Virus record (IMG/VR): IMGVR_UViG_3300034101_003542
Coordinates: 1 to 41,802 of that record
Direction: 5' to 3' (one strand)
DNA from: a virus
Length of the DNA: 41,802 bases
The notes below the pieces were generated by a model, which did no database searches, was not told the DNA's origin, and saw nothing but the letters and a program-made list of their open reading frames with translations. Positions 8,401 to 41,802 of the stretch are shown here, one piece after another. Position 1 is the stretch's first letter. Each line of letters opens with the position of its first letter. Position numbers and translations under genes: made by a program.

Positions 8401-11400
8401 CAGCCGCCAAGAAAAAGGCTGGACAGGCCAAGCCAAAGGCCGCAGAATCAAAGCCGCAGGGTAGTGAAACGGTCATCACGGGAGATTCATTATCTTCAGA
8501 AGCGAGTTCGACTCTCGCCCCTGCAACCAACGAACAAGACGATATTCGCATTGCATCGGAAACAATGCTCGAAATTCAAGCTCGCACAGATCCGGGCCCA
8601 GAACGTGAAGCGGCACTTGCCGAACGACGGAAAGCCGCAGAACGAATTGTCAGCACTTTGCAAATAGGCGACATTATCACTGATGTGGACGGCAATGAAT
8701 ATATTGTCGATGGCAAGCCTATGAATGGAAAGGTGTTTGTAAAGGGGGCAGGCGAACCAGTGGATGCAGTCACCATGCTTATCCCAGGTTTTGCAAAGGA
8801 CGCTCAAGGCAATAGAATTGAAGAGCCGCCCGCGACTATTACGCGAAAAAATCAACCGACGCCCACAAAAAGCATTAGCGGCCAACCGGGAGCATTGACG
8901 GATGCCGTTATTAACACGCGCGTCACCAAAGACCTTGAAGCAGAAATCCCAAGGCTCAAAAAAATAATCAATGACGCCATGACCGGCGGAGAGCCTGACA
9001 CAGAGCTTGCAGGCATGGCTCAAAACGCGCTTGATAGTGTGCGTGCGGAAATCGCCCGCCGCAAAGCAGCCACCATTACAACACCCGCCCCCACCAATGA
9101 GCCGCAGCCGCAAGCAGCCGTATCGCTTGAGCCGAGCCGTGGACAAATCGTGCCGGAATCACGGGAACTGCCCGTGGTGCCAGAACAACCGCCAGCACCG
9201 GCACAAGAAGCGGCTCCTGAGCCTGAGCCAGCAGCAGGCGGAGGCCTGACGCCAGCCCAGCAAGACCAGCTTGCCCGGGCCGAGTCCGCGCACAAGAAGC
9301 GCGTGGAAACCATCACCAAGATGGAGGCCGACCCCGAACAGCGAGCCAAGCAACTCAAGGCCGAGGGCATGAAGCACGCCGCCGTTAAGCGCCAGATCAC
9401 CGGCAAGCTCACGGCCAAGGAACAGGCTGCCCAAGACAAGCGCGAGGCCAGCAACTATGAAGGAAAGCCTGTGACCGTGGAAGGCCGTCCGGCAGTCGTG
9501 ACAGGCAATGCCTTCGGCAAGGTAAAAGTCCGTTTTGAGGACGGCACCACCAAGGCCGTGCCCGCCAGCCAAGTCACGGCCCGACAGGAGGCCCCGCCCG
9601 CCCCCGTGGAAGAAGCCGCCGCCCAGGCCGCCACAAGCCCGGCCAGCCCTGCGCCGGAGCCTAGTGAGGCCCCCAGCCTGCCCGAGGCTAGCCAGGAAAC
9701 GGCCAGCCCGGCGGAGGCCAAGCCACCGGAGCAGATGACGCCGGAGGAGCAAATCATTGACGCTGAAAACCGCATCAACAGCATTAAAGAGTTCCTAAAG
9801 AATGATCCAGACAAGGGGCTAATTGATACAGCAAAACAGCAACTCGCTTCAGAGCAAACTCAGCTAGTTTTAATGAAGAGGCAGTTTAAAAAGCCTCTGA
9901 CGCAAAAGGAAGCGGACGATTATGGAGCCCCAGCAGGCTACGTCCGCGAAGGCGACCTTTACGTTTACCGCCCGGCCCCTGCCGGACAGCCCGTGTCCCA
10001 AGCCGGACAAGCCGTGTCCGAGCCCGCCCCGGCCACGCCCCTAGCCAAGGCCAAGGCGTATATTGAAAGCCAAATTGCACAGGCAAAAGCAAGGATTACA
10101 GAAATCGACGCCGCTTTAACGGACTGGAAATCGCGCCGCTATAAATCAACTCAAGGCACCGAAGTCATTAACGATAAAAATCCCGCCAACTTTTTTGGCG
10201 TTAAGGAAGTCAATTTAGGTTCTTTGAATGAAAAGAAAAGAGCCGCCAGAATTCGCGCTTTGGAGGACGAAAAAACACAGCTTGAATCCAAGCTCAAAGC
10301 CGACACTAGAGAACTTCAAAAAATTGAAGATCAAATTGCAGAGCAATCTCCGCAACAACCTACGACCAATGAAACTATTGATCAACTTATTCAACAAGCC
10401 AAAGACGCCGGACTTGGAGAAGCGCAAACGACTGGCGGAAATGTCCGAAAAACGCAGGCAGGAGTGGATCAAACAGAGGGCGAGACTAGGCGTTCCGCCG
10501 CCGACACGCGAAGAGATGGCGGCAAACTGGAATCACAATATGCGCCAAATGTTCCCCTAGCCAAGGCCAAGGCCGCCATTGCCGACTACACGGCCAAGGC
10601 AGAGCAGGCGCGTAAAGGATTAAAGGGAGCAGCCGCAGCGCCATTTAACCGCCAGATCATTGGAGGGTATCATCTCGCCAAACGGCTAAATAGCCTTCAA
10701 GGAGCTGTTGAATACAAAATCGAAACCATATACGACGGCGTTCCTATTGACGGGATGATGGTTGCCCGAGACGGCAGCCTTGTCATCAATCCAACCGCCA
10801 TTTTGGAACTGATTACGGCCAAGCATTTGGACGGGAAGGCCATTGCCAAAGCCATCGACAAATTTTTGGTGCATGAGTTCATCCACCTTGCTGCGCTATC
10901 CAAAATCTCTGGCAGCCGTATCAACAAACTCTACAATTCGCTAACTCCAGAAGCTAAAGAGATCAGCAGTAAACTCTATTTGGCCGAGGCTCGCCCGAGA
11001 ACGCCGCCGCTTCATATCGGTCCCAAAAATGAGGAGTATAAAGAACGCATAGAACGTGAATTTCGAGCCGCGCACGAATGGTTTGCCCAGCTCGTAGAGG
11101 CCCGCATGTCCGGCGAGATCAGCAACCAAGCCCTAATTGAAGCCTCCGACGACCCGGCCTTCCGCGACAAGCTGGCCGCCTTGTTCCGCGAGTTCGTGGC
11201 CGCCCTCCGGGAGATCGCCGGGCTGGTCAAAGACCCGGCCATGGCCGAGCAAATCCGGGCCGAGGCCGACGCCGTGGAGGCTTCCGTCCGGCAGATGGCG
11301 GAAAAGGCCGGGCTGGCTGAGGCACCGAAGGCCGAACAGGCCAAAGAGACGCCCGGCATTCCGGCAGAAGGCAAATACAGTGTTTATCAGGCCGGCGGCC

Positions 11401-14400
11401 GCTGGCTTGTGCAGCAATCCGACAAGCGCGGCTTTGGGGATCACCTTTTTGACTCCGAAGAAGAAGCCGTTACGGAATCTCTGCGCCAGCAGGACATGGC
11501 CCGCAAAAATGCCGAATTTTCAGCCAAGCAGGAAGCCGCCGCCAAGGCAGCCCAGGAGGCCGAAGAGGCTAGGCTAAAGCCGCTGAACGACTATCTTGAC
11601 GCGCTCGGCATGTCGGCAATGCAACGCGGTAAGCTGAAAACAGCTTTGTCGGCAGACACCGCCAAGCAGAGCCGGGAAAAAGGCAAGATTTACCAAGGGA
11701 CGCGATTCAACGCGGCTCAAGAAATGGTGGCCGATGGATTCCGCGCCACGACCGAGCAAGTTCCAGCTATCAAGGAGCCGACAGGCATCCAGTGGAACCG
11801 GATGAACAACCAGCAACAGGCAGAGTTTGAGCGCAAGCGCAAGGCCGCCGGGACGACAACCGAATACAGGCTTGCCCTTCCTTCCGGTTCTATGTTCGTC
11901 GTCACCAAGGCCGAGCACGATTACGCCAAATGGCTGGCCGAACGCCCAGCCCCGGCCCCCGCCCAGCCTGCCGAGCAGGCCGCCCAGGCCAGCCAGCCCG
12001 TAGAGGCTGCCGCGCCTATGGGGCAGGCCGCCGCCGCTGCCACGATCACAAAAGAGCAGGCCGAGGAAGTCCTGAAAGACAGCACTCTCAAAGATAGGCC
12101 AATCAAGACCTACGAGATGGCCGTGGCCGCCAATCAGATCCACATGGGGACCAAGATTTCCGATTGGTCCGCATTCCCATTCACTGGGGAAGCGCAAGAC
12201 GGCAAGCCAACGCAAGATTTGACTGGCGCATCTGAGATGCAGAAAGCTCCAACGCTATTCCCAAGCAGCAACGCGCAAGAGCACGGAAACTGCGAGTGGT
12301 GCGGAAAGCAGCCAGTAAAGAACTTCTATTTCATCAAAGACGATGGGAAGAAATGGACGCTAGCCGTTGGTAGCGAGTGCATCACACATTTTGCCGACAA
12401 AAGCGGCGATGAAATGGCCGTAGAAGCCCGCCAAAGCCTTGCCATTGCCACCATCCAGGGCATTACGGAGGCCCGCAAGACACTCTCTAAAGAGTTCAGC
12501 GAGATTCAATCAGCCGGTTATGGCCGCACTGAGCGCGTATGGAAAAATCCTTCAGCCCGCACGCTTAACGATGAAACTCCCGACATCCTTGGTAAGATCA
12601 CCATAGAAAGCGGAGCGGCAGCACATAGCCGCTGGTTGAACACAAAACTTGAAGCCGCTCGCGAGTGGCTGGCACGCTACGCTGAACTGATGGCGCGTCC
12701 AGAAACCAAGAAACGCCAAATCGAATGGCGCACTAGCCGCATCAAAGAGCTTGAAATCTCTCTCAAACTCAAAAACAAGCCAGAGTGGGAGCTTGCCAGC
12801 CTAGAAAAGAAACTGGAAGAACTGCGCGGCGAGAAGGCCGCTATGGAAGGCACCGCCGCCGCTCCGCCGCCTACCGTGCCTACGGCAGCCGACGAAATTG
12901 CCGCCCGCCAACGAGTCGAGGCCGCCCGCATCAAAGCGGATGACGCCACCGCCAAAAGAGAAGCCGCCGAGGCCGCCCAGGCCGGGCCGGAGAAAGCCCC
13001 GCCCGCCTCCGTGACGCCAGCCCAGGCCGAGGCCGTGGCCGAAGAGGCCGCCATGCCGGAGCCGGCCGCCGAGGCGGAGAAGCCGAAGGCTGGGACGGAA
13101 GTGGAATACCGCGAACTTGGAACCAGCAATGGTGAGGCTAACACCACGGTATTTTTCAAGGCTCCCGGTTTCCAGGGGGATACCAACATGCGGACAAAAA
13201 GCAGGTTCTCAAAAGAGATCATGCTAACCCGCTATGAGTATGACCCGAAAAGCAAATACGGTGCCCGTAAGACCGTGAATGTTCACGGATTCGGCCCTTA
13301 CACGTCTGTCAAAGACGCCAAGGCTGTGCTTGAAAAAGCATGGGCGGCAGGACGCTTAAAATTCAATGAACTTGGACAGTTGGTCAAAATGGAGCCCGGT
13401 GTCAGCGATGCCACGGAAATCAACAATTTGCCAGCGCCAGCAGGCGGATGGAGTGGGCGCAAAACAGGAGCAACCGCCGATTTCATTAGTGACGGACGAA
13501 TGCTGATACCGCGCGCAAAAGTGCGCAGCCTTTCTGTTGTAAACAAGCCGAACGCTCTCACAAAAGAAGGCGAAACAGCAGGAATGGACGAAAGGGCTGC
13601 AAAGCTCTGGCAAGACATCACCTCGACCGAAACAAAAAACCTTCGTGTAATGCAGCCCATTGGCGCGGCACTCACGGACGACGGCATGAAACGGGCCTAC
13701 TTCCAAACCATCCAAGGCAACACCGTCACCTTGGACGCCGGAGTGCTCGGCGTGTTTATGAAGGCCCTCGGCAAAATTGACAAATGGGAGGTTACATTTG
13801 AAAACAACCGAGTCGGCCCAGTAATCGCCTACCGTGGCGGCGAGCCCGTAGGCGTTATCATGCCTTTGTCCGGCCTCCAGTCAGACGGCGACATGGCCCG
13901 GCTCGTCGAACAAGCTCTAGCCCGCTCTGCCCCGCCCGTGACGGCCCAGCCGCCCGCCGTGGAGGCTGCCGGGAAGCCCGAGGCTAGGCCAGCCGCAAAA
14001 ACAAAAAGCCAGCTTGCGCAGGAATTGGCCGGCGAAGAACCCAAGGACTACACGTTGCGCCAGCAATGGAAGAAACGGGTTAGCGATTACATGGGCCGTT
14101 CAAAAGCCGAGCTTGAAGAGCTTCTTGCGGATAAGGCTGTGAGCGATGCGAAATACAAAGCCAGGGCAGAAAAAATCAAGGAATGGAGCGACTATTTGCA
14201 GTCCAAAATCGACCTGGACGATGCCAAATGGCGTTCTACTCTGGCGACATTCGCCGAACAAAACGGCGTTCAATCATGGTCCGCTATGATGGACAACGGC
14301 AAAGGAGGGGAAATTTACCGCCTTGCAGAACGGCTTGCAGATACAAACGCCGCTTTGCCAGCCGCCAAGCAGCCCAGCCAGCCCGAGGCCCAGCCAGCCA

Positions 14401-17400
14401 GGCAGGCCCCCGCCGCCGAGGCCGGGCAGGGCCAGGAGGAGGCCGCAGACAAGCCTCCAGTCGGCTACGGCGACGAGCCAGCCCCGCCAGCCATCACGGC
14501 CCCCGGCGTGCGCTACAACGACATGCCCCTGGAGCTTGCCCGGCAGGCTCACAGCGGCACCTCGTTTGTGCCGGATGTCCGCGCCCGAGGCGAACAGCGC
14601 CAGTATGTCGCCTACATGAACGCCGTTTGGGCAGATCTGGAGGCCAAGGCAGCCACGGACGAGCAGAAGGCCACGGCCAAGGCCGAGTTTGCAGAATACC
14701 GCGAAAACTATGTGGAACGCTACAAGGACCTGCTGCGTTCACGGGCCGGGCTTGTGTCAGCCATGATCGCCGGGCCTTCTAAATTCCCAGCAGCCAGGAT
14801 GCAAAAGCGCAACGACGCTTACGACAAGAAGCTGAACGCATTCAACGAATGGGACAGGAAGGCAAAACGCCGCATCTATGGCGAAGTAGCGCCAGCCGAA
14901 AGCAAAGTTATTTCTGCCGACGATGCCAACGCGCCGGAAGCATTGAAAGCCAAAATCGAACAGGCCAAGAAAATGCAGGAGGCCATGAAGGCCGCTAACG
15001 CCATTGTGCGCAAAAAGAACCTGACCGACGAGCAAAAGGTTAAGGCCATGGTGGATCAGCTCGGCTTTCGAGAATCAACCGCTAAAGCGGCCCTGACTAA
15101 AGACGATATTGGCCGAGTTGGATTCCCAGACTACGCGCTGACCAACAATCTGGCGAACATCAAGCGCATGGAGGAGCGCCTAAAAGGCATGGAAAAGCTC
15201 CGCGCCACCGCCGCCCGCGAGGCCACGTTTGAAGGCGGCTGGGTCGAAGAGAACGCCGACCTGAACCGCGTTCAAATCTTCTTTGACGCCATCCCCTCCG
15301 CCGACCTTCGCACCAAGCTCAAGGCCAACGGCTTCAAGTGGGCACCCAGCCAAGGAGCCTGGCAGCGCCAGCGCACCAATGCCGCCGTCTATGCCGCCGA
15401 GAGCATGCTAGGCGTCAAGATGGCCTCCCCAGCCAAAGAGGCCCAAGCCGAGCCTGAGCCTGCCGACATCGGCCCCGCCACGCCCACGCCCCTGCCCGCC
15501 GACGAAGGCGGCCAGCCCGGCCTAGCCAACCCGCCCGGCCGGCGTGGCCCGGTCCGCCAGTCCGACGAGGCCCAGGCCGCCGAGCTTGAGGAGGCCGCCA
15601 ACGAGGCCGTGAAGGAGGCGGGGGAAATCCTGCGCGAGTTGCAGCAGCAGGGCGAGCAGGAGGCCCGAGAAAAGGCCAAGGACGAGGCGGCCCGGCTGGC
15701 TTTGGCTAACGATCCGAAGGCCGTGCGCTCCATTGGCGAGGGCGAGAAGATCGACGCCCGCAACCCATCGTTGATCTTCAAGAACCCAGCCGCACGCCGC
15801 TTCTATCAGGCCATTCTGGTGGCCCGTGCCGAGCTTGGCATGAGGACATACATTAGCGACAAGGAACTTCAGGACTTCGCCCGCAAACAATTCGATTCCG
15901 ACCCGGAAGGCGTTTACGAATGGGCGCTGGACAAGGCCGACGAGGGCGAAAGCCTTAACGACGAAGAACAGGCCGTCCTGTTTGAGCTTTTCGACCGTGC
16001 CCAGGCCGACGACAGCCCGTTTATCAACCGCCCCGGATTCGATCAGGAAATGGTCAAGCTAGGCCATTACATCCGCGAAAGCCGAGGCACCACGGGCCGA
16101 ATGCTCCGCTATGGCCGCGACCGGGTGGAGACGCCCCAGCAGCGCTGGAAACGCGCCTTCTACCACATCAAAGGCCCGGACTCTAAGCAGGCCGCCATGC
16201 TACGCATTGCCCCGTCCGCCCGCGAGAAGGCCCGCCGGATTGCCGAGCTTGAGGATCAGCTTGCCAAAGCCTCCGCCGCCCGCCGGGCCGACGTTGAGGC
16301 CGCCCTAGCCAAGGCCAAGCGCCAGAAATCCCGTGCCGAGGTTCTGGAGGAAATCACAGCGGAGAACGAACGGCTCATGGACACCATCATCGACAAGATG
16401 GGCGGAGTCACGCGAGACGACATCATGCACTCGCCGTTGGAGCGCTACGGTGCCCAAATTGCCGTTTTGGATTTGCCAGCCGTCCGCGAGGCTCTGGACA
16501 AGTTCGATAATGGCCGCGACATCATGCTTCTTTCATTCCGTGGCTTTTCTACCCAGCACATAGCTGGCGCTCTTCAAATCCCCGAGGGCGACGTGGCCGA
16601 CTTCATCAAGCAGGCCAACGCCGCCATTGTTCGCCCGGCCATTACAGAACAAGTGAAAGCCGGAAAGACCTTTGGCGACTGGATCAAGTCAGGCCTGGAC
16701 ATCCTGGCCCGAAAAACCGGCCTGCGCCAACCGCCGTCAATCCGCCCACTGGAGAACTGGCGAACGCTCATCACCGGCAAAAGGCAGACCTTGGACGAAG
16801 TAACCGCCGAGGTGAACCGGGTAATGAACTACGTCCAGCAGTCGCAAAAGGCTCGCGACTCCAAGAAACTGATGTCGAAGGTTATCAACACCCCGACCGG
16901 CCAGAGAGTCCGCATCTTTGTGCCGTTCGACCCCGACGACGCCACCAATTACTACTCATTCGCCCGCGAATACTCCGCTGCCAAGGCCAATGTGTTCGAC
17001 AAGTTCTATGAATACTGGATCAACTGGCCGCTTTTGTCAGGCCCGCAGACCCAGGTTGTTAACTTCACAGGCAATGCCGCCCAGGTGGCTTGGCACTACA
17101 CAGGCCAGCGCCTTGCCGAAGCCACGCTGAACGCCCTGATTTACCACGACCCGAACAGCGCCCAACTCCGCGAGTTCTGGCACATTATGAAGGGCTTCTG
17201 GAAGAGTATCGGCCCAGCCCTGGACATGGCCCGCCAGTCCTTCCTCACAGAAGGCGACACCGTGCGCCACAAGTTCCTCAACGAGCCGCTGCAAATCGAC
17301 ATTGTTGACGGCGACATCGACAAGGTGGGCGGCATCCGGGCAGCTGTGGGAGGCAAGCTAGGCCGCCTGAACCGCCTGCCGGGCCGTGTGCTTCGCTGGA

Positions 17401-19007
17401 CGGACTCATTCTTCAAGACCGCTGTGCTTTACGCCGAGGCCTCCGCCGTGGCTTATCGCAAGGCCCACGCCTCCGCCAAGACCCAGGGCCTCAAGGGGCA
17501 GGCCCGCCGCGATTTCATCGACACGGAAATTGACAACACCCTTAAAGACCCGCAAAGCCCGGTTTGGGCGGATGTCATGGACACGGCTGAAGAGCTGCTG
17601 TTCCAAGACGACAACGTGGCGACCGCCATTGTTGACACCATGCTTGGCGGCTACCGGGGCGTGAATGCCTTTGAGAAGGCCCTGGCCGAGGCCAAGGCGT
17701 CGGGCAATTCTAAGACGGTGGCCGTCCTGAATGCCATGATCGCCGGAGCTAAAGCTGTGAACCGAATCATGCGGTTCATCTTCCCCTTCCAGCGCACCCC
17801 AACGAATATCATTCGCGCTGGCCTGCGAAAAGGCGGCGGATCCGCCATTGTTGGGCTCTACCATCTCCTGCATGGCGGCTGGCTAAAATATAAGGACAAA
17901 ACTCCCATGCTGCAATCCTACACCAAGGCCATGCAGATCAAGGATTTGTCTGAAACAGGCATTGCCGTCATGGGCTGGCTCATGCTTGCCAGCATGTTTG
18001 AAGGTGACGATGACGACGAAAAGAAACCTTTCTTGATAGTCGGCTCACGGCCAAGCTCTAGGCAGGGATACCCTGAAAAGCAGGCGTTTTTGAACAAATA
18101 CGGAGGCGAAAGTTCCTTCGTTTGGCAGGATAGTAAGGGTAACGTCATCGCTTCCAAGTCGTTTGGTCGATACGAGCCGATTGGAACGCTCCTGACAACC
18201 TGGGTGGACGCTTACCGGAACTTTCAAGAAGTCCGGCGCAGGCAGAAAGCGGGCGAAGCCGCCAGTTTCAAAACATACATGCTTTCCAGCTTCGTTTCCG
18301 GCCTGGAAAACAAATCCTTCCTGCAAGGCCTTTCCAACATTATGGAATGGGTTCGCGACATTGAAGAACGCCGGGAAAATCCCGACGTGGACGCCGACAC
18401 AAAATTCGTCCTGCGAAACATCGTCCCGAACATTATCAAGCAACCTCTCCGCAACTTGGACGAAGTAGTCAGGGAAACAAAAACGGCCGGAGCCGGTTAC
18501 TCGGCCCTGCCGAATCCGGCCCTTTCGCCCAAGCTGCCGACCTTTGCCGCCGAGCCCAAAATCTCGACCACGGGCCAAAAGATGCGCAAAGACTTGAGCG
18601 CCCCGGCACGCCTGCTGTTCCCGGCAAATACGGTTGTCACACCACAGCCCGACGCCCTGCTTTACCGGGCCAACAGGCTTAACCCGACCGCTGCCAAGTG
18701 GCCTTCTGGCATCCAGAGGGACGAATTTTTCTATCGCGCCCCAGGAGCTAAGCCGAAAACGCCCGGCTACCACGTCCCGATTGAAGATGCCGCCGGAAAG
18801 CGCCGCTTTGCCGAAATGGTGGGCCAGGAATACACCAAGGAAGTGCGCAACTACGTCGCCAGCCTGCCGCCCGCCCTAAAGGCCCGGCCCGGCCCTGAGC
18901 AAATCGAAGGCCTAGCCAAGGCCATGACCGAAGCCCGAAAGAAGGCCCGCATACTCTATGGCTTGCAGAAGCCCAAAACCCCGGCCATAACTACATCCAA
19001 TAAATGA
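5241..19007 (+). CDS. Giant (4588-aa) polyvalent virion-type protein with zincin, zinc-finger and LPD38-like regions
   Basis: Proteins of this class are multi-domain phage proteins thought to enter the cell with the DNA. In order it shows: Ala/Glu-rich coiled coil (about 140-480); a Gly/Ala-rich hydrophobic region (about 715-793) followed by EELPEETADEFF (827-838); the stretch encoded by the embedded tRNA (1072-1097); an SH3/KOW-like segment YEGKPVTVEG...GKVKVRFEDGT (about 1405-1447); a zincin motif HEFIH (H1878-H1882) with a possible further ligand near H1945/E1946; a CxxC...CxxH finger (C2351, C2354, C2380, H2383); a VQIFFD...GFKWAPSQGAWQRQ module (about 3340-3385); and a C-terminal half resembling large polyvalent protein-associated domain 38 (LLSGPQTQVVNFTGN near 3931, FPFQRTPTNI near 4181). 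Pro/Ala/Glu linkers separate modules and GC content shifts sharply between them. It ends as ATGA with the portal gene. Domain names are by resemblance only. Confidence 0.9.
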   Translation: MSNGLASLLRNPRRLQQFAETPGNYPAALSFAGAGQSRVAGRAAPRTSKSEEEAGVLETGEVIDKVKLPDGSYVRPATQSGQIVKVPGRSNLFVDPATGEPFQADPAKPTGLRSAFETARKVARGGKLFAVVPGVGEREIGADPEAEAKAKEQAAKREAENVRLGYAKEKRPYNIDRVTGRPVPLQSDEEWAKAKQEKADKLAEAAAVKKLKAQADKLDIDADRLSLTTPKVSPEEAAAYDAAVSSLEGFAADKDLDTAAEELANAPDVEDEEQNAAKATAQSYLSLRDKVKPAKDAEEKAKELKLRALDLKEQMLDPDAWKAGKAASLAELPDADLAAEANAQADIITEQETEAQGTLELVAKGRADLEQKHAAFLAERQAAEAQGISLEQRQALDAEQAQFEAEMADYDDWNAEAVTSAQGSLKASQDRREVLAAAGAEIDRRNKAAQEQFQVATEKAAVLDKAKPLYDWAKDNFHYTDDYRGMNDYGILDAEAKKAGLDPKQAREALQTFRQLDWSNPRRDAQTGQPIAEESRLLPDGRVTINPGAWGDLATYTKAVEASGASEVAKKQALEQFPQLQEIYAEKAVDILSKSANIPGQDNFMKWRERKIEEDQAQKGALGFTRKSPARQAIEYMDEMKNRSWFRKAGEQIVSGLLVGSADIATQVLGDAAMLTGSETIADLAAANSANSESVVGAQSLEGSDTDYALRVMGMGARMAPGVAAMMAGAGAIGGGVTAASILSGAQTAGGMFADIYRKAKDEGMTHGEAWRKAALPSAFAGAITGLLTRGMGATGLERVFADPVAKEAAKGAFKTYLGQFAKAAAEELPEETADEFFSQIIQGAAESADPAATLKNYVENLPELAGVSALMGGAGGLMQGQGNAQAAGPDGMAPMPAEPQAQAGPAPTPGTVAPAQISQPAQTGDIAGAIKAFTPTGEAMLPQAVADTVKRTNRTTEDVSRAAASGLVKVAQGASLESLDAREREALGFVSKDGKIIPAPKTTPLVETYKGKLVIRNEAAEWLDDEGQPLLARQIRLDEAERKAQIDEAEAKPAAKKKAGQAKPKAAESKPQGSETVITGDSLSSEASSTLAPATNEQDDIRIASETMLEIQARTDPGPEREAALAERRKAAERIVSTLQIGDIITDVDGNEYIVDGKPMNGKVFVKGAGEPVDAVTMLIPGFAKDAQGNRIEEPPATITRKNQPTPTKSISGQPGALTDAVINTRVTKDLEAEIPRLKKIINDAMTGGEPDTELAGMAQNALDSVRAEIARRKAATITTPAPTNEPQPQAAVSLEPSRGQIVPESRELPVVPEQPPAPAQEAAPEPEPAAGGGLTPAQQDQLARAESAHKKRVETITKMEADPEQRAKQLKAEGMKHAAVKRQITGKLTAKEQAAQDKREASNYEGKPVTVEGRPAVVTGNAFGKVKVRFEDGTTKAVPASQVTARQEAPPAPVEEAAAQAATSPASPAPEPSEAPSLPEASQETASPAEAKPPEQMTPEEQIIDAENRINSIKEFLKNDPDKGLIDTAKQQLASEQTQLVLMKRQFKKPLTQKEADDYGAPAGYVREGDLYVYRPAPAGQPVSQAGQAVSEPAPATPLAKAKAYIESQIAQAKARITEIDAALTDWKSRRYKSTQGTEVINDKNPANFFGVKEVNLGSLNEKKRAARIRALEDEKTQLESKLKADTRELQKIEDQIAEQSPQQPTTNETIDQLIQQAKDAGLGEAQTTGGNVRKTQAGVDQTEGETRRSAADTRRDGGKLESQYAPNVPLAKAKAAIADYTAKAEQARKGLKGAAAAPFNRQIIGGYHLAKRLNSLQGAVEYKIETIYDGVPIDGMMVARDGSLVINPTAILELITAKHLDGKAIAKAIDKFLVHEFIHLAALSKISGSRINKLYNSLTPEAKEISSKLYLAEARPRTPPLHIGPKNEEYKERIEREFRAAHEWFAQLVEARMSGEISNQALIEASDDPAFRDKLAALFREFVAALREIAGLVKDPAMAEQIRAEADAVEASVRQMAEKAGLAEAPKAEQAKETPGIPAEGKYSVYQAGGRWLVQQSDKRGFGDHLFDSEEEAVTESLRQQDMARKNAEFSAKQEAAAKAAQEAEEARLKPLNDYLDALGMSAMQRGKLKTALSADTAKQSREKGKIYQGTRFNAAQEMVADGFRATTEQVPAIKEPTGIQWNRMNNQQQAEFERKRKAAGTTTEYRLALPSGSMFVVTKAEHDYAKWLAERPAPAPAQPAEQAAQASQPVEAAAPMGQAAAAATITKEQAEEVLKDSTLKDRPIKTYEMAVAANQIHMGTKISDWSAFPFTGEAQDGKPTQDLTGASEMQKAPTLFPSSNAQEHGNCEWCGKQPVKNFYFIKDDGKKWTLAVGSECITHFADKSGDEMAVEARQSLAIATIQGITEARKTLSKEFSEIQSAGYGRTERVWKNPSARTLNDETPDILGKITIESGAAAHSRWLNTKLEAAREWLARYAELMARPETKKRQIEWRTSRIKELEISLKLKNKPEWELASLEKKLEELRGEKAAMEGTAAAPPPTVPTAADEIAARQRVEAARIKADDATAKREAAEAAQAGPEKAPPASVTPAQAEAVAEEAAMPEPAAEAEKPKAGTEVEYRELGTSNGEANTTVFFKAPGFQGDTNMRTKSRFSKEIMLTRYEYDPKSKYGARKTVNVHGFGPYTSVKDAKAVLEKAWAAGRLKFNELGQLVKMEPGVSDATEINNLPAPAGGWSGRKTGATADFISDGRMLIPRAKVRSLSVVNKPNALTKEGETAGMDERAAKLWQDITSTETKNLRVMQPIGAALTDDGMKRAYFQTIQGNTVTLDAGVLGVFMKALGKIDKWEVTFENNRVGPVIAYRGGEPVGVIMPLSGLQSDGDMARLVEQALARSAPPVTAQPPAVEAAGKPEARPAAKTKSQLAQELAGEEPKDYTLRQQWKKRVSDYMGRSKAELEELLADKAVSDAKYKARAEKIKEWSDYLQSKIDLDDAKWRSTLATFAEQNGVQSWSAMMDNGKGGEIYRLAERLADTNAALPAAKQPSQPEAQPARQAPAAEAGQGQEEAADKPPVGYGDEPAPPAITAPGVRYNDMPLELARQAHSGTSFVPDVRARGEQRQYVAYMNAVWADLEAKAATDEQKATAKAEFAEYRENYVERYKDLLRSRAGLVSAMIAGPSKFPAARMQKRNDAYDKKLNAFNEWDRKAKRRIYGEVAPAESKVISADDANAPEALKAKIEQAKKMQEAMKAANAIVRKKNLTDEQKVKAMVDQLGFRESTAKAALTKDDIGRVGFPDYALTNNLANIKRMEERLKGMEKLRATAAREATFEGGWVEENADLNRVQIFFDAIPSADLRTKLKANGFKWAPSQGAWQRQRTNAAVYAAESMLGVKMASPAKEAQAEPEPADIGPATPTPLPADEGGQPGLANPPGRRGPVRQSDEAQAAELEEAANEAVKEAGEILRELQQQGEQEAREKAKDEAARLALANDPKAVRSIGEGEKIDARNPSLIFKNPAARRFYQAILVARAELGMRTYISDKELQDFARKQFDSDPEGVYEWALDKADEGESLNDEEQAVLFELFDRAQADDSPFINRPGFDQEMVKLGHYIRESRGTTGRMLRYGRDRVETPQQRWKRAFYHIKGPDSKQAAMLRIAPSAREKARRIAELEDQLAKASAARRADVEAALAKAKRQKSRAEVLEEITAENERLMDTIIDKMGGVTRDDIMHSPLERYGAQIAVLDLPAVREALDKFDNGRDIMLLSFRGFSTQHIAGALQIPEGDVADFIKQANAAIVRPAITEQVKAGKTFGDWIKSGLDILARKTGLRQPPSIRPLENWRTLITGKRQTLDEVTAEVNRVMNYVQQSQKARDSKKLMSKVINTPTGQRVRIFVPFDPDDATNYYSFAREYSAAKANVFDKFYEYWINWPLLSGPQTQVVNFTGNAAQVAWHYTGQRLAEATLNALIYHDPNSAQLREFWHIMKGFWKSIGPALDMARQSFLTEGDTVRHKFLNEPLQIDIVDGDIDKVGGIRAAVGGKLGRLNRLPGRVLRWTDSFFKTAVLYAEASAVAYRKAHASAKTQGLKGQARRDFIDTEIDNTLKDPQSPVWADVMDTAEELLFQDDNVATAIVDTMLGGYRGVNAFEKALAEAKASGNSKTVAVLNAMIAGAKAVNRIMRFIFPFQRTPTNIIRAGLRKGGGSAIVGLYHLLHGGWLKYKDKTPMLQSYTKAMQIKDLSETGIAVMGWLMLASMFEGDDDDEKKPFLIVGSRPSSRQGYPEKQAFLNKYGGESSFVWQDSKGNVIASKSFGRYEPIGTLLTTWVDAYRNFQEVRRRQKAGEAASFKTYMLSSFVSGLENKSFLQGLSNIMEWVRDIEERRENPDVDADTKFVLRNIVPNIIKQPLRNLDEVVRETKTAGAGYSALPNPALSPKLPTFAAEPKISTTGQKMRKDLSAPARLLFPANTVVTPQPDALLYRANRLNPTAAKWPSGIQRDEFFYRAPGAKPKTPGYHVPIEDAAGKRRFAEMVGQEYTKEVRNYVASLPPALKARPGPEQIEGLAKAMTEARKKARILYGLQKPKTPAITTSNK
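8455..8529 (+). tRNA. tRNA-Met-like (anticodon CAT) embedded in frame within the giant ORF
   Basis: The 75 nt fold into a full cloverleaf. The acceptor arm is 8455-8461 with 8519-8525: six pairs plus a C1-A72 mismatch. The D-stem GTGA/TCAC is 8464-8467 with 8476-8479, its loop carrying A14, GG and A21. The anticodon stem is 8481-8485 with 8493-8497 (one G-T pair), loop TTCATTA, anticodon CAT at 8488-8490. The variable loop has 4 nt. The T-stem is 8502-8506 with 8514-8518, loop TTCGACT. Discriminator A8526 and CCA 8527-8529 are encoded. Departures from consensus are T at position 37 and A at 48. C1-A72 is typical of initiator tRNA, but the three GC pairs of an initiator anticodon stem are absent, so elongator Met or a lysidine-modified Ile tRNA is equally possible. 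The giant ORF reads through it as residues 1072-1097. Confidence 0.85.
10038..10057 (+). repeat. 20-bp direct repeat, copy 1, within the giant gene
   Basis: CCCCTAGCCAAGGCCAAGGC encodes the PLAKAK motif. An identical copy lies 516 bases downstream in the same reading frame, and the segment between them is clearly poorer in GC. A 17-base partial match occurs near 16304 within another LAKAK motif, so biased codon choice may explain part of the identity. Confidence 0.7.
10554..10573 (+). repeat. 20-bp direct repeat, copy 2, within the giant gene
   Basis: Identical to the copy at 10038-10057 and in frame with it. The two copies bracket about 496 bases encoding a coiled-coil-like, Gln/Thr-rich segment. 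Confidence 0.7.
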
Positions 19008-29317: not shown

Positions 29318-30853
29318 ATGGCTACCTACACCGCAATCGACGCCCAAACGGTCGCTCAGATCGTTGCGCAGTCCCCCACCTATGCCCGTCAGATCATCTG
29401 GGTTTCCTCGATCCAGATGGACGAAGAACGCTACAACCCGTTCTCCGAACTGATGGGAGGCCTTGGCTCCGCCAAGCCCATCAAGGAAGTTCTCGACACC
29501 TCCAAGGTGCGAGGCAACACCATCGTTTTCACCCAGGAAGCCGGACTCGGCGGCAAGGGCGTGGAAGGCAACACCTCGCTGATCGGCGCTGAAGAAGCCC
29601 GCAAATACAGCCAGTTCACGCTGACCATCGGCCTCCACCGTCATGCCGTTGCCGAAACCGTCACCACCAAAGACCTGACGTTCATCGGCACGACCTTCGA
29701 CCAGAGCGCCCGCCGTGGCCTCAACGAATGGGTCCAGCGCCTCAAGTGCGACTGCATCGAGGCCACCATGCTCGGCAGCCTGGAAACCTACAACACCCTG
29801 TATGCGGGCAACAAGGCCAACATCAACGCCCTGACATCCACGGATGTCGTCACCAAGGCGACCATCTCGCAGGCCAAAATCATGGCGAACGGGATCAAGA
29901 TGAAGCAGATCGAGGTTGCCCGGGCGAAGGGCGGTCAGCGCATCCTGAAGTATTTCTTCCAGGGTAACGACTACCTGTTCCAGGGCCTCCGCGAAAACTC
30001 CACCTGGGAAAGCCTCCTGGCGACCGCTGGCGATCGTGGCGACACGAACTACCTCTTCTCCGGCTTCCTGCCCGAGTATGACGGCGTTCTGCTCAACAAC
30101 TGGGCTGTCTCCAACACCGCCGCCGACGCCGCTCAGGGTGCGTTCTGCGCCCCCCGTGCCTACCTCGGCGAGGAATACGCGGCCAAGGCCACGACCACCA
30201 CGCTTGTGGCGATCAAGGGCGGCGGCTTCAACGGCAGCTCCACGCTGACCACCAACGCCATCGCCAAGACCCGGAACGACTACTTCCGCTACTTCCCCGG
30301 CGCTGGCTTCACCGCCTTCGAACAGACGTTCATCTCGTCCACCTCCTCGGCCCGTTATCTCATGGTCATCCACGGCAGCGGCTCCGACATCGGCAAGTTC
30401 AGCTTCTTCAAATACACGACCTGCGACGGTTACACCGTTTCGGCGACTGGCATGGAGCGCCTGGGCTCTACCTCCTCCGGCGGCTACGTCACCACCCTGA
30501 CGGGCTCCACGATCACCTGGGGCACCGCTCCCTGGACCTCGGCTTACCTCTCTGAGGCTGCCATCCCGGTCGGCTCGCTCATCATCCCCTGCAACAGCAA
30601 GGGCCAGCCCTACGTCTGCGGCTACTTCATGGGCAACGACGCCGTTTATTGCGGCTACGGCTCCGTGAACGGCAAGCCCAGCACGGCCATGGGCCAGCGC
30701 GTCACGGAACAGCAGGACTACACCAACCGCTTCGGTATCGGCGTCCAGATGGTCTGGGGTGCCACCGCCTACAAGAACGCCGCCCTCGTCAAGAACGGCT
30801 ACCTTGTGGTTTATGGTGCCTGGAACGCCCCCGGTATGCCGGAGGTCAGCTAA
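29318..30853 (+). CDS. Major capsid protein, N4-gp56 type
   Basis: This 511-aa protein would build the icosahedral head shell (HK97 fold). It resembles the N4-gp56 family. The N-terminal region is MATYTAIDAQTVAQIVAQSP, followed by NPFSELMGGLG. A VRGNTIVFTQEAGLGGKGVEGN strand-loop region comes next, then the characteristic LTIGLHRHAVAETVTTKDL (102-120). The region NEWVQRLKCDCIEATMLG corresponds to the spine helix, and beta-rich P-domain segments follow. It has no obvious cleavable N-terminal delta domain, in keeping with a separate scaffold gene upstream. Codon use is strongly biased toward C-ending codons, more than in its neighbours, as expected for a very highly expressed gene. No SD is visible before the ATG. 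Confidence 0.9.
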   Translation: MATYTAIDAQTVAQIVAQSPTYARQIIWVSSIQMDEERYNPFSELMGGLGSAKPIKEVLDTSKVRGNTIVFTQEAGLGGKGVEGNTSLIGAEEARKYSQFTLTIGLHRHAVAETVTTKDLTFIGTTFDQSARRGLNEWVQRLKCDCIEATMLGSLETYNTLYAGNKANINALTSTDVVTKATISQAKIMANGIKMKQIEVARAKGGQRILKYFFQGNDYLFQGLRENSTWESLLATAGDRGDTNYLFSGFLPEYDGVLLNNWAVSNTAADAAQGAFCAPRAYLGEEYAAKATTTTLVAIKGGGFNGSSTLTTNAIAKTRNDYFRYFPGAGFTAFEQTFISSTSSARYLMVIHGSGSDIGKFSFFKYTTCDGYTVSATGMERLGSTSSGGYVTTLTGSTITWGTAPWTSAYLSEAAIPVGSLIIPCNSKGQPYVCGYFMGNDAVYCGYGSVNGKPSTAMGQRVTEQQDYTNRFGIGVQMVWGATAYKNAALVKNGYLVVYGAWNAPGMPEVS

Positions 30854-37964: not shown

Positions 37965-38239
37965 GAGAGGGCATCCGAAAGGAACAGGCCGTGATTGCCA
38001 GAAAGATGATCTTCTAGCCCCGCAAGTCTCTCATGCGCCCCCCTGATAGCCTCGCGCATGGCTGCGTTCTCCTCCGGCGGAGTCCAACCCAAGGCTTTTA
38101 GCGCCTGTTTGGTCGCTTCGTCCTTCGCGCAGGCAACCTTGCGGTGAATCATCCCGGCGATGTCCGTCGTGTCGCAGCCGAATTCCCTGGACTCAAGGTT
38201 GAAAAATGGCGTGACCGTCATTTTGAAAGAATCACTCAC
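37937..38239 (-). CDS. Hypothetical small protein ending in PFLKP (GTG start)
   Basis: This 100-aa protein begins MSDSFKMTVTPFFNLESREFGCDTTDIAG with a GTG at 38239 that overlaps the upstream stop as GTGA. This start fits the coupling pattern better than an ATG at 38257. The middle is helical (HRKVACAKDEATKQALKALGWTPPEENAAMREAIRGAHERLAGLED) and the C-terminus is LSKLKPFLKP. No family is recognised. Confidence 0.74.
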   Translation of the reverse strand: MSDSFKMTVTPFFNLESREFGCDTTDIAGMIHRKVACAKDEATKQALKALGWTPPEENAAMREAIRGAHERLAGLEDHLSGNHGLFLSDALSKLKPFLKP

Positions 38240-38463
38240 TTCGCCACCTCCTTCCATTTGAACGTGGTGTTTCCTTCCTTGCAGATACGGGCAAGCTGCT
38301 CGCGCATGGAGGCGTTCTCGCGTTCGAGGATCGCCATTTCATCGCCTCGAACAACCTCACCGTGATAGGATGAGCCGTCAAGGGTGTGCGCGTAAATAGC
38401 ACAGCTAGAATCGTCTGAATCCAGTTTCAAACGAGCAGCGTCCGTTCTCGGCGTGTCACTCAC
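38236..38463 (-). CDS. Small 'MSDTPRTDAA' family protein (GTG start)
   Basis: This 75-aa protein begins MSDTPRTDAARL, a start found in many small phage proteins of unknown role. A typical charged helix follows (RGDEMAILERENASMREQLARICK). The GTG at 38463 overlaps the upstream stop as GTGA and is preferred to ATG 38502. The family is early-region and probably host-interacting, but no function is known. Confidence 0.78.
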   Translation of the reverse strand: MSDTPRTDAARLKLDSDDSSCAIYAHTLDGSSYHGEVVRGDEMAILERENASMREQLARICKEGNTTFKWKEVAK

Positions 38464-39044
38464 TCCGCACCCCCTTTCTTGGCGGCGAGGAAGCCTTGCC
38501 ATGCTGCATCTGCGATGAGCCCGTTATGGTCGGTGTGGCCTGTATTTGTCCACCACTCGCTGAATTCCTGCTGCCACTTCTCCTCATGGCTGGGCTCGCG
38601 GGGCAGGATGCCGTCGGGGAGGCTGAACCAGAAGCGAACATTGTGGTCAAACGGCAACACCTTAGGCCATGCTAGGACAATCGTATATCCGTCCGAAGTT
38701 CGGCAAACTGCAAAAAGATTCTCCTCCATCGTCGGCTTCTCTGAGGGCAGGCGCAGGCGTATCATGGGCGGCGAGGCTGGGGCGGCCTGGGCGATGGGGA
38801 GGGCGTAGCGCAGTGTTCCGCGAAAATCGCTCGAAATACATCCGCCAACACCATAGCCAGACTTTGACCAACCGCTGCCAGGGAAGTCAGGATCAAAGGC
38901 CATCGGGCGGCAAGGCAGCTTCTTTAGCCTCGGATCATCCTTGCCCACGATCTCCCAGCCGGGCGGAGGCGGCGGGATCGGGCGGGCGGCGGGCTTCTTG
39001 GCAGGCTTGGCCTTGCGGACTGGCTTTTTCTTGGGTGTGCTCAT
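38460..39044 (-). CDS. Protein with the shared PPPP-GW-IV / YALPI N-terminal module
   Basis: This 194-aa protein has a basic N-terminus (MSTPKKKPVRKAKPAKKPAAR) followed by the same module as the hydrolase gene at 89-802: PPPPPGWEIV, DDPRLKKLPCRPM, GYGVGG and YALPIAQ (about residues 23-85). The C-terminal half differs completely: FAVCRTSDGYTIVLAWPKVLP, then FSEWWTNTGHTD...ADAAWQGFLAAKK, which is found in small phage accessory proteins. The module is therefore mobile between early and late genes. ATG 39044 with a GACACCGCC leader is preferred to ATG 39098. Confidence 0.76.
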   Translation of the reverse strand: MSTPKKKPVRKAKPAKKPAARPIPPPPPGWEIVGKDDPRLKKLPCRPMAFDPDFPGSGWSKSGYGVGGCISSDFRGTLRYALPIAQAAPASPPMIRLRLPSEKPTMEENLFAVCRTSDGYTIVLAWPKVLPFDHNVRFWFSLPDGILPREPSHEEKWQQEFSEWWTNTGHTDHNGLIADAAWQGFLAAKKGGAE

Positions 39045-39081
39045 GGCGGTGTCAGGTTGTCGGTGGGTTAGTGTGGCATAA

Positions 39082-40536
39082 TCAGTCGGTCCAGTCACGT
39101 TCTTCTTGTTCCATTTCGCGGATCAGGTAGCGGCCACCGTTAAAGTGGCAGAGAATCTTATCCCCGGAGGCAAACCCTCGGGCAATCTCCACGACAAGCT
39201 CGCGGCGGTCTTTGACGACCTCGGCCACCTTCTCAGGCTCTGAGAAGCCGCGCTTCTTCTCCTGCTTCTGGACAATGTGCCGGAGGCGCAGCCAAGCCTC
39301 GCAGTCAAAGGCCAGGCTCCGGCTTTCCCTGACTTGGCCCTCGTCGTTCTCCTGGGCGACCACAATGCAGGGCACCCCGTAGGTCTTGGTGGCGTTGCAC
39401 AGGCTACCCGAGATGTGGGCAAGCTCCTGTTCCCGGCTACCAAACCGCTCCCGGCTCCGCAGCTTGCCAATCAAATCCACCACAAACAGGCCAGTGCCGG
39501 CCTCGGCCTCGGCCCGCATGTCGGCCACCACGTCCTCGACGTATTTACCGGCGGCGTTGTCGATCAGGATGAGTGTTCCGATTTCCTGCATGAGGCTTTT
39601 CTGAGCCTTGGCGTATTCCTCCTGCTGCCACCGTTCCCGTAGACCGTGCCTGTCCATGCTGCCGTCCAGCCTGTCGGAGGCGGAGGCCAGGATGCGCCCG
39701 GCATAGGCCCGGCGGCCGATTTCGTTGGTGTAAACCTTGGACTTCACGCCCCGGCGGGCCGCATTCACGGCGATGTTTCCCGTCAAGACGGACTTGCCTG
39801 ACTTGGTGGGGCCGGTGACGAGCCAGTATTCATCGACTCCGATGCCGCCGCAGGCCCGGTCCAGGGTAGGGATGCCCGTTGGAATCAGCGGGTTCTCGCC
39901 CTTCATCAACCGCTCGGTGAGCTTCTGCATGTAGTCCATGTGCTCAAACAGGCAGTCTTTCAGCGTGGCCGTTGTCTCCCCCGCCGGCGCATAATCGCCC
40001 AGGAAGGCCCGCACGGTCTGGTCGGCCAGGTTCAGGCTGCCCCTCACGCCCTCCCGGCTCGTATCGGCCCGGCCCTCGGCAAATGCCGCCTGGAGGCCAT
40101 GCAGGGCCTTGGCGTAGCCGTGGATGGCCTGCCGGTATTGCCAGCGCCCGGCCAGGTCGGTCATGTAGTGCTCGTAGTGCGTGGCGCTTGGCACAAAGGT
40201 GAACAGTTCCATGATGGCCCCAGGGCCGCCGACCTTTTCCAGCTTGCCCTGATCCCGCAGGCGGTTCGTTAGCATCACGGGATCAACCGGCAGCCCAGCC
40301 TCTTCCATGGTCAGCATCTCGACATAGACAGCCCGGTTCGCCTCATGGTGGAAGGCCTCGGGCCGGATGCGCTGGCGGCTGTTCCGCAGCCTGCCCGGCT
40401 CCTGCATGAGGGCTGAAATCACGCTCTTCTCGCTCTCGTCGGAGGCTGGCAACGGCTGATTCAGGCCCGCCAGGATTTCCTCGGTGGATGGCTCGGCCCG
40501 GCGGCGGGCGGGCGGGTTGGTGGGGGCTTGGCTCAT
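39082..40536 (-). CDS. dnaB: Replicative DNA helicase, DnaB-like
   Basis: This 484-aa protein would unwind DNA at the phage replication fork. The N-terminal domain (about 28-115) has DESEKSVISALMQEPGRL and EAFHHEANRAVYVEMLTM, as in DnaB N-domains that bind primase or loader. The RecA-like domain carries Walker A GPTKSGKS (G242-S249) and Walker B LFVVDLIGKL (D354). A sensor-type CIVVAQENDEGQVRESRSL motif follows. The start overlaps the replication-initiator stop as ATGA, and the two are probably co-translated. The length is normal for the family. Confidence 0.92.
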   Translation of the reverse strand: MSQAPTNPPARRRAEPSTEEILAGLNQPLPASDESEKSVISALMQEPGRLRNSRQRIRPEAFHHEANRAVYVEMLTMEEAGLPVDPVMLTNRLRDQGKLEKVGGPGAIMELFTFVPSATHYEHYMTDLAGRWQYRQAIHGYAKALHGLQAAFAEGRADTSREGVRGSLNLADQTVRAFLGDYAPAGETTATLKDCLFEHMDYMQKLTERLMKGENPLIPTGIPTLDRACGGIGVDEYWLVTGPTKSGKSVLTGNIAVNAARRGVKSKVYTNEIGRRAYAGRILASASDRLDGSMDRHGLRERWQQEEYAKAQKSLMQEIGTLILIDNAAGKYVEDVVADMRAEAEAGTGLFVVDLIGKLRSRERFGSREQELAHISGSLCNATKTYGVPCIVVAQENDEGQVRESRSLAFDCEAWLRLRHIVQKQEKKRGFSEPEKVAEVVKDRRELVVEIARGFASGDKILCHFNGGRYLIREMEQEERDWTD

Positions 40537-41405
40537 CGGCGGGTCGGGGCTTTGTAGGTGGCGTGATACGAAACGATCCGGCTCCAGGCGGCGCAGAAGG
40601 CGGCCAAGCTGCCGGTCTGGCGAACGCAGGAGTCCGCGTAAGGGTGGCTGGCGGCCGTCTCCCAGGCCCAGCGCAGGCCGTTAAGCCACTCGGCGGCGGT
40701 CAGGCCGGGCAACGACCGCAGAAGGGCTTGGAGTTGCTGGCCGTCTTTGCCGCCCTGCATGGCGTAGGGGCTGCCGGTCTGGACCTCGTATTCGTCGGCG
40801 AAGATGCGGACAAACTCGGCGTGGCGTGTGTCGGCTGGCTTCTCGGCTTTCGGGGCCTTGAGGCGTTTTTCGGGTGGGCTTTGAGGCTTCAAAACCAAAT
40901 CCTCCGGCGGAGGCGTAGCCGATGCCGTGGCAGGCTTGGCTTGAAGAGGTTTTTCTGCTTCTGCCTCTGCCTCTGCATTAGCTCTACCAACGCCTACAGG
41001 ATTCGACTGCGTTCTACCGCGTTCTACAGTAGAAGCTCTTTCTTTGGCGCGGCGGTTGTTGATGTAATTGCGCTTGGACTCCTTAATGGCTTCAGTATCA
41101 CGGATTTCCCGATACTTGGCGTGGTTCAAAAGCCGCCATCCACCGTCAATCTTCTCAATCCGGCGGCCCTCATTGTCAGGCGTCCGGCTGTATTTGTCCG
41201 GCCCCAGGAACTTGCTCAACGCCTCCTCGACATCCTCAACGGGGACACGGGCACGATTGGCAAGGCCGGGCACAGAGGCCCAGACTCGGCCTTTGGAATC
41301 CGCCATGGCAAGCATGGTGATCCAGACAAGGCGGACGTTTGCCGACTCGATCCAAATGGTGGACTCGGTGATGGAAGAAAATAGCTTCGTGAATACCATA
41401 CTCAT
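40533..41405 (-). CDS. Phage replication initiator / helicase-loader-type protein
   Basis: This 290-aa protein has an N-terminal winged-helix-like domain typical of phage replisome organisers: SANVRLVWITMLAMADSKGRVWASVPGLANRARVPVEDVEEALSKFLGPD, then RIEKIDGGWRLLNHAKYREIRD. A disordered Ala/Glu/Pro/Lys linker follows, with an AEAEAEAE hexanucleotide repeat. The C-terminal helical domain (FVRIFADEYEVQTGSPYAMQGGKDGQQL and LNGLRWAWETAASHPYADSC) is like those that contact the helicase. It precedes and overlaps the DnaB gene. Two copies of a TTCTAC-N-GTAGAA palindrome lie in and before it, so the gene may contain or border the origin and be self-regulated. Confidence 0.83.
   Translation of the reverse strand: MSMVFTKLFSSITESTIWIESANVRLVWITMLAMADSKGRVWASVPGLANRARVPVEDVEEALSKFLGPDKYSRTPDNEGRRIEKIDGGWRLLNHAKYREIRDTEAIKESKRNYINNRRAKERASTVERGRTQSNPVGVGRANAEAEAEAEKPLQAKPATASATPPPEDLVLKPQSPPEKRLKAPKAEKPADTRHAEFVRIFADEYEVQTGSPYAMQGGKDGQQLQALLRSLPGLTAAEWLNGLRWAWETAASHPYADSCVRQTGSLAAFCAAWSRIVSYHATYKAPTRR
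41012..41034. promoter_or_regulatory. Operator- or iteron-like site inside the replication gene
   Basis: A half site TTCTAC at 41012-41017 is followed by a full palindrome TTCTAC-A-GTAGAA at 41022-41034. The same palindrome with a different centre base occurs at 41416-41428, with another half site nearby. Such sets are typical of repressor operators or initiator-binding iterons. Confidence 0.55.
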
Positions 41406-41415
41406 TTCGTTGTTG

Positions 41416-41440
41416 TTCTACTGTAGAAAAATACTTCTAC
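41416..41440. promoter_or_regulatory. Operator- or iteron-like site upstream of the replication gene
   Basis: TTCTAC-T-GTAGAA (41416-41428) is followed by a half site TTCTAC (41435-41440). It sits in the AT-richer 75-base gap (41406-41480) before the minus-strand replication gene, 11 bases upstream of its ATG. A promoter for the early operon is expected here, but no confident -35/-10 pair can be assigned. Confidence 0.6.
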
Positions 41441-41480
41441 AAGCGAAAGTGAAAAAAGGGACCAGGAAAAGCCAGGAGGC

Positions 41481-41753
41481 CTAATCGGCCGCCCGCCCGG
41501 CCCCGCCGTCAAGGCCGGGCTTGGCCTTCTTCGGGCGGGTTGGGCGCTCGGCCAGTGGAACGGCAGGCTCAGTGCCGGACTTATTCAAAATGTGGGAGAG
41601 CGTGCCGCGTGAGGATATGCCAAACTCGGCCAGGGTCGCCATAAAGCCGTGTTGCTTGTAGTAGGCGATAACTTGGGCGTGCGGATACTTCACAAGGCTC
41701 CGGCAAGCCTTCATAGAGTGGGCGCGGCGATCTTCTGGGTGGCGGTCCAGCAT
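41481..41753 (-). CDS. Small HTH-like protein, first gene of the early operon in this window
   Basis: This 90-aa protein has HAQVIAYYKQHGFMATLAEFGISSRGTLSHILNKSG (about residues 25-60), a helix-turn-helix of the type found in small phage regulators and in transposase N-termini. A basic Pro/Lys-rich tail follows. Its position upstream of the palindromic sites makes it a candidate binder of them. The start is ATG 41753 with an AGACAAC leader; an in-frame ATG at 41714 is possible. The 49 bases to the right window edge show no gene. Confidence 0.7.
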   Translation of the reverse strand: MLDRHPEDRRAHSMKACRSLVKYPHAQVIAYYKQHGFMATLAEFGISSRGTLSHILNKSGTEPAVPLAERPTRPKKAKPGLDGGAGRAAD

Positions 41754-41802
41754 GTTGTCTTGCTGAGTTCCTAGGCCAATGTTGTCGCGGTGGTTGTTCT
41801 TG

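Follow-up and report, generated by a model that had tools for sequence, protein, structure and literature searches.

The GTAGAA/TTCTAC sites clustered at 41012-41440 of this 41,802-nt stretch of viral DNA (the window, meaning the whole stretch analyzed) are, as far as sequence comparison can tell, quite likely half sites of the replication initiator encoded at 40533-41405, serving as an operator upstream of its gene and as an origin within it, read by a long helix of the protein and forming with it an autoregulated, exchangeable cassette in the style of lambda and SPP1. In the proposed mechanism, GT-NNNN (here GTAGAA) would be the recognition half site of the initiator, and two or three such half sites upstream form inverted repeats through which the initiator probably represses its own promoter. 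The linker-coding part of the gene carries a head-to-tail array with steps of about one helical turn, then (CAGANN)n, and is the probable replication origin; bound initiator would open the DNA at the array and recruit the helicase whose gene is adjacent. The four variable bases would be read mainly by the long helix (residues 107-118) rather than by the HTH helix, and because this helix is encoded immediately beside the array, reader and target would move as one cassette. The genes and domains concerned are the following:

39082-40536, minus strand, DnaB-like replicative helicase gene (PF00772 and PF03796 above cut-off, phrog_19)
40533-41405, minus strand, gene of the 290-aa replication initiator, start ATG at 41405-41403 (open reading frame; weak PHROG replisome organizer match, E 1.4e-5; helicase directly downstream)
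41130-41399, minus strand, predicted winged-helix domain, residues 3-92 (AlphaFold2 model; winged-helix structural matches, Z up to 8.3)
41028-41123, minus strand, predicted long helix, residues 95-126 (AlphaFold2 model, covariation)
41481-41753, minus strand, gene of a 90-aa putative HTH protein, judged not to be the binder (HTH_28 below cut-off, E 0.099)

The 13-bp palindrome TTCTACNGTAGAA, reported in the initial annotation at 41022-41034 and 41416-41428, was recovered at both positions by exact matching over the whole record, as were the half sites TTCTAC at 41012-41017 and 41435-41440. Instead of many copies elsewhere, the 41,802 nt hold these two exact palindromes and no others, compared with none in 100 dinucleotide-preserving shuffles (0 expected). 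Since the number of palindromes with up to three mismatches (6 found, 5.83 expected) is at chance level, only the exact copies count. The proposal that the motif is confined to the early-promoter and initiator region holds for the full palindromes and fails for the half sites: of the 19 occurrences of GTAGAA/TTCTAC in the window, 6 fall in 41012-41440, compared with about 0.11 per 430 bp predicted from base composition, so the half sites are clustered there rather than confined. On the gene strand, the upstream set reads GTAGAA-N6-TTCTAC-N1-GTAGAA from -35 to -11, which places both the N6 and the N1 spacing in the window. The in-gene set reads TTCTAC-N1-GTAGAA followed by four more copies, making five sense copies in exact 10-bp steps, the last three decayed to GTCGAA, GTAGGC, and GTAGAG. 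These three weaker copies and the adjoining (CAGANN)n tract had been overlooked at first. The complete set is as follows:

41435-41440, minus strand, upstream half site in gene sense, GTAGAA, the first of the two arms of GTAGAA-N6-TTCTAC (28 of 67 loci have the N6 spacing)
41423-41428, plus strand, upstream half site, gene-antisense
41416-41421, minus strand, upstream half site, gene-sense, forming the 13-bp palindrome with 41423-41428 (N1; spacing in 20 of 67 loci)
41029-41034, plus strand, in-gene half site, gene-antisense, arm of the second palindrome
41022-41027, minus strand, in-gene iteron 1, GTAGAA
41012-41017, minus strand, in-gene iteron 2, GTAGAA
41002-41007, minus strand, in-gene iteron 3, GTCGAA
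40992-40997, minus strand, in-gene iteron 4, GTAGGC (degenerate)
40982-40987, minus strand, in-gene iteron 5, GTAGAG
40953-40976, minus strand, (CAGANN)n tract GCAGAGGCAGAGGCAGAAGCAGAA, coding for AEAEAEAE, a candidate unwinding or loading element

Relatives carry matching sites at the same two places. Viral and genome contigs yielded 276 loci including the window, 275 of which match the initiator N-terminal domain; 271 were usable after L050, L198, L120, and L069 had been dropped for a missing start, upstream region, or length, and with 169 of these 271 redundant at 85%, 102 non-redundant loci remained. GTAGAA/TTCTAC itself recurs upstream and at +369 to +397 in L004, L005, L006, L007, L010, and L020, among 32 loci inspected. 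The site word varies by lineage (GTAGAA, GTGGAC, GTAACG, GTTAGC, GTCCCG, and others) and is constant between the two places of one locus. Across the 102 loci, 7-mers common to the 120 nt upstream of a gene and positions +351 to +411 of that same gene total 492, at least one being present in 78 loci; the corresponding totals average 182.7 (SD 18.8, maximum 239) under synonymous recoding and 142.6 (maximum 219) with permuted upstream regions, each over 300 runs. Per locus, the 60-nt segment at +360 has 4.84 shared 7-mers and the other segments have 0.8 to 1.5; the upstream partners lie mostly between -60 and 0 relative to the start codon.

A GT-N4 hexamer could be called with confidence in 69 of the 102 loci, leaving 33 without a confident call. 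Geometry was evaluated in 67 loci, L034 and L073 having been removed by hand, with labels re-oriented or merged by hand as well (for L277 with the helix in view). Neighboring sense-strand sites in this set are spaced 9 to 11 bp apart in 186 of 223 cases. The upstream geometry GTNNNN-N6-NNNNAC is found in 28 of the 67 loci (mean 2.5, maximum 8 with permuted classes) and NNNNAC-N1-GTNNNN in 20 (mean 1.8, maximum 6); one or the other occurs in 31 of the 67 and thus not in all. The early suggestion that the repeats are iterons of the origin is well supported at the sequence level, with the same two places occupied in relatives and the sites tracking the DNA-binding helix of the initiator.

The tract that adjoins the array is a recurrent feature as well. 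At least three CAGANN units occur at +390 to +540 in 67 of the 102 loci, versus five times in the 610,597 nt elsewhere in those loci. When the tract is chosen by its protein pattern alone, GCA encodes 241 of 242 alanines, compared with 351 of 1,696 in other parts of these genes, and L025 and L031 carry the tract on the opposite strand, where it translates to a quite different peptide. This near-fixed GCA usage and the opposite-strand copies identify the tract as a DNA element, which may act in unwinding or helicase loading, or might instead be a cluster of priming sites. AT content after the iterons is only mildly raised (0.50 to 0.56; 0.52 to 0.56 at +420 to +480 versus 0.43 to 0.48 further down), and the GC skew of the window is uninformative, giving no clear origin signal.

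It is rather unlikely that the sites serve regulation only, with the initiator repressing its promoter and the copies inside the gene acting as secondary operators instead of an origin. Such a role would fit the enrichment of TTGAC at -75 to -25 (34 of 102 loci versus 4 to 10 per other 50-nt bin) and the -10-like TACAGT lying inside the N1 palindrome of L008, L023, L097, and L098, which together support self-repression in the family; the upstream region of the window itself contains no sigma-70-like promoter by the consensus of the tool used. However, the array inside the gene exceeds the upstream set in both regularity and copy number and is followed by a codon-fixed tract, features that would be expected from an origin and not from an operator. 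We favor both roles for the sites, the upstream ones likely retaining an operator function in which the initiator would repress its own gene.

The initial annotation had also offered the palindromes as operators of the small HTH protein encoded at 41481-41753, taken as an early-region repressor. This gene is adjacent, and its product has a weak match to HTH_28 (E 0.099, below the curated cut-off). Yet the protein occurs in only 2 of the 276 loci (the window and L003), and other GTAGAA-bearing relatives lack its gene. Phage L003/L083 is near-identical to the window, with a helicase 99% identical, and alignment by blastn extends to 41490 and resumes from 40940, with a 457-bp insert lacking any match in between. 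The segment replaced in this phage is as follows:

40941-41489, segment wholly replaced in L003/L083 (blastn breakpoints; 549 bp in the window, 457 bp there)

In the window this segment contains all the sites of the cluster, the six exact and the degenerate half sites alike, together with the CAGANN tract. In L003, GTAGAA is missing from the replaced segment and the palindrome from the entire 48,951-nt record, and the HTH gene is retained with 95% protein identity. Since the swap removes the sites and keeps this gene, the sites travel with the N-terminal half of the initiator and not with the HTH gene. Operators of the HTH protein would, moreover, leave the tandem in-gene array and its covariation with the initiator helix unexplained. 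We consider that role very improbable and discarded it on the joint presence and absence of motif and HTH gene. The cassette of L003/L083 (4140-4596 in L083) encodes a different initiator N-terminal half with the basic stretch AERRRMADRERKARVK, and its linker has three AGAATTCCGC-like repeats and a pyrimidine-rich stretch, making this phage a second initiator type with in-gene repeats and no GT core. Because the AGAATTCCGC repeats lack that core, the residue-base rules described below do not extend to the L003 module.

An RNA hairpin that hides the translation start is scarcely credible as the reason for the upstream inverted repeat. GUAGAA-N6-UUCUAC could fold in the RNA of the window, but its fold energy is ordinary (z -0.62, equaled by 53 of 200 shuffles), which led us to reject an unusual RNA fold upstream; the N1 form is unable to make a hairpin, and the transcript of L097 is predicted, from spacing, to start at about the start codon. 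There is next to no chance that the repeats are merely a by-product of the linker peptides (e.g., NVENVERGR), since, although the array is located in coding sequence, synonymous recoding removes most of the match (492 versus 183) and served to reject coding constraint as their cause, the reading frame shifts at every 10-bp step, and L005 has three opposite-strand copies that encode a different peptide.

The initiator of the window has no family in Pfam and no credible solved relative by sequence (best E 0.75). AlphaFold2, given an alignment of 77 sequences including the window out of the 102 loci, predicts a winged-helix domain (residues 3-92) followed by a single long confident helix (residues 95-126), with pLDDT 91 to 98 as 10-residue block means over residues 11-100. 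A Foldseek search of this model against the PDB returned 827 matches at E ≤10 and none at E ≤0.001, and VIA-align 2 on the top 1000 gave matches of the usual winged-helix kind (best Z 8.3); as these cover residues 7-94 for the most part, structure comparison hardly tests the long helix. All six matches at E ≤0.001 in BFVD are unnamed or uncultured phage proteins. Three queries found no match to the initiator family among 50,697 deposited phage records, and the family has therefore apparently not been studied in any cultured phage of that collection; a DNA search of 38000-41802 against deposited phages and a plasmid search with one query likewise returned no match. O-like PHROG profiles are found in some family members (phrog_678 in 9 of 77, phrog_345 in 6 of 77) and not in the protein of the window; the match is C-terminal in L071 and L037 and wider in L051. 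The same N-terminal domain carries varied C-terminal parts, assigned by PHROG as O-like replication initiation, DnaD-like helicase loader, or primosomal protein.

Residues 111 and 114 covary most strongly with the hexamer, and 107, 110, and 115 score high too; mutual information, contingency tables, and the model delineate residues 107, 110, 111, 114, 115, and 118 as the helix face that covaries with the iteron. With the dominant GTAACG class excluded (44 loci), the mean summed z is 11.45 at residues 105-117 versus 1.90 in the HTH helix (residues 56-67). Some residues elsewhere, such as 101, 88, 4, 40, and 42, score as well, and the signal there may reflect kinship. By partial correlation, hexamer difference is related to helix identity at -0.476 and to winged-HTH identity at -0.230. 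For the residue-base tables, hexamers were called blind to the protein in all 69 loci, N2 and N3 being the second and third variable bases. At N2, the base is G in 19 of 20 loci with Lys111, A in 20 of 21 with Asn111, and C in both loci with Glu111; at N3, it is C in 28 of 29 loci with Arg114 versus 1 of 40 lacking this arginine. These Lys, Asn, Glu, and Arg pairings are consistent with common residue-base preferences. Residues up to 118 are encoded ahead of the array in the window, and the sites therefore do not dictate the covarying residues there. In L080, where a nuclease domain has shifted the array downstream by about 260 nt, the repeats read GTCAAT, in agreement with the prediction from its Asn111.

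The rules were fixed before the last three scans, which added 97 new loci, 77 of them redundant and 20 kept (L315, L287, and L371 were dropped). Nine of these 20 were callable and 11 had no call; N2 was right in all six predictable cases, each predicting A, and N3 in eight of nine. L283, the sole N3 miss among the new loci, has four GTATCG words upstream and two in the gene, which may be a further class or the operator of another repressor. Relaxed calls in 35 earlier loci outside the curated set fit at N2 in 7 of 11 (Glu111 3/3, Lys111 3/5) and at N3 in 12 of 13, bringing the held-out totals to 13 of 17 for N2 (residue 111) and 20 of 22 for N3 (the Arg114 rule), with residue 111 the less clean of the two. 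On a tree built from the winged helix only, the minimum numbers of changes are 32 for the hexamer, 6 for Lys111, 8 for N2=G, 8 for Arg114, and 9 for N3=C. A tree-aware pair test found just two independent pairs on supported branches, too few for the sign test to decide on kinship.

In-gene iteron origins are already known from lambda, Stx phages, and SPP1, as is a covarying, swappable initiator domain and origin from the PLE satellites, according to the available portions of the reports cited here. The window shares with the lambda and SPP1 type a repeated array inside the gene and a helicase gene beside the initiator. O-binding iterons in lambda and Stx phages lie in the middle of gene O and are followed by a special tract, the lambda iterons being 19-bp imperfect inverted repeats next to an AT-rich region, as described in the part of the source available (PMC7466680). 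The window likewise has an iteron array in the middle of its initiator gene and then a special tract, here made of hexamers at 9 to 11 bp and (CAGANN)n, unlike those described in that part for lambda. Further differences from lambda are that a DnaB-like helicase instead of a P-type loader follows the initiator, that the protein of the window has no O-like match, and that matching sites upstream of the initiator gene are a feature of the family. SPP1 gp38 binds direct repeats in oriL, which lies within its own gene 38, as well as oriR, a second origin about 13 kb away, and works with a DnaB-type helicase, in the excerpted account (PMC6316719). The in-gene direct repeats, second set of sites, and DnaB-type helicase of the window resemble that arrangement as excerpted, whereas the second set lies here at the start of the gene itself, and no helicase loader or AT-rich element was found in the window. 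RepA of the PLE satellites of Vibrio cholerae has a DNA-binding domain that covaries with the origin and swaps with it as a module, the C-terminal part being retained, and the PLE origin is intergenic with semi-palindromic iterons of about 30 bp, in the sections of the source at hand (PMC8263062). Initiator domain and sites also covary and swap as a module here; in contrast, the array is in the gene, and a residue-level rule emerges that was not found for PLE in those sections. The DnaA-trio of bacterial oriC, a strand-specific 3'-(G/A)AT-5' every 3 nt beside initiator boxes in the available part of its description (PMC10797057), resembles the CAGANN tract in being a short strand-specific repeat beside such boxes, with CAGA here every 6 nt; this is a resemblance only. 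Our literature search returned no description of this initiator family and no match for the hexamer code, its helix outside the HTH, the paired upstream set, or the CAGANN tract.

Taken together, it is possible, if short of probable, that a large uncultured phage family carries self-addressed origins, in which one helix, separate from the HTH helix, reads GT-N4 by a near one-to-one rule (Lys111-G, Asn111-A, Glu111-C, and Arg114-C, the last amounting to G on the opposite strand). This helix being encoded beside its own array and tract, reader, operator, and origin would be exchanged together as a single cassette. Under this tentative joint reading, diversification would let related phages avoid cross-initiation or origin attack, and a nuclease would have entered exactly between helix and array in two lineages. 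If true, the iteron sequence of an unseen phage would be readable from two or three initiator residues, and compatibility groups of phage origins would be predictable from metagenomes. The family would also offer a natural data set for the joint change of a DNA-binding protein and its site, both being encoded in a stretch of about 100 bp.

In two lineages, a nuclease domain separates the recognition helix from the remainder of the linker. L077 and L080 (4001-5071 in L080) have a MUG113/T5orf172-type domain at residues 137-205, and L014 (3499-4548) has an HNH domain at residues 146-193; in L080, the GTCAAT iterons (10-bp spacing) and the tract come after the insertion. These initiators are reminiscent of the origin-directed nuclease Odn, a nuclease fused to an initiator-like DNA-binding domain in the sections of PMC8263062 referred to above. 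Elsewhere in the window, 5241-19007 (plus strand) is an open reading frame of 4,588 aa whose first 667 codons have no Pfam match, a short part of the open reading frame at 899-3433 matches a profile of the terminase large subunit, and 29318-30853 is a capsid gene by Pfam Phage_capsid_3.
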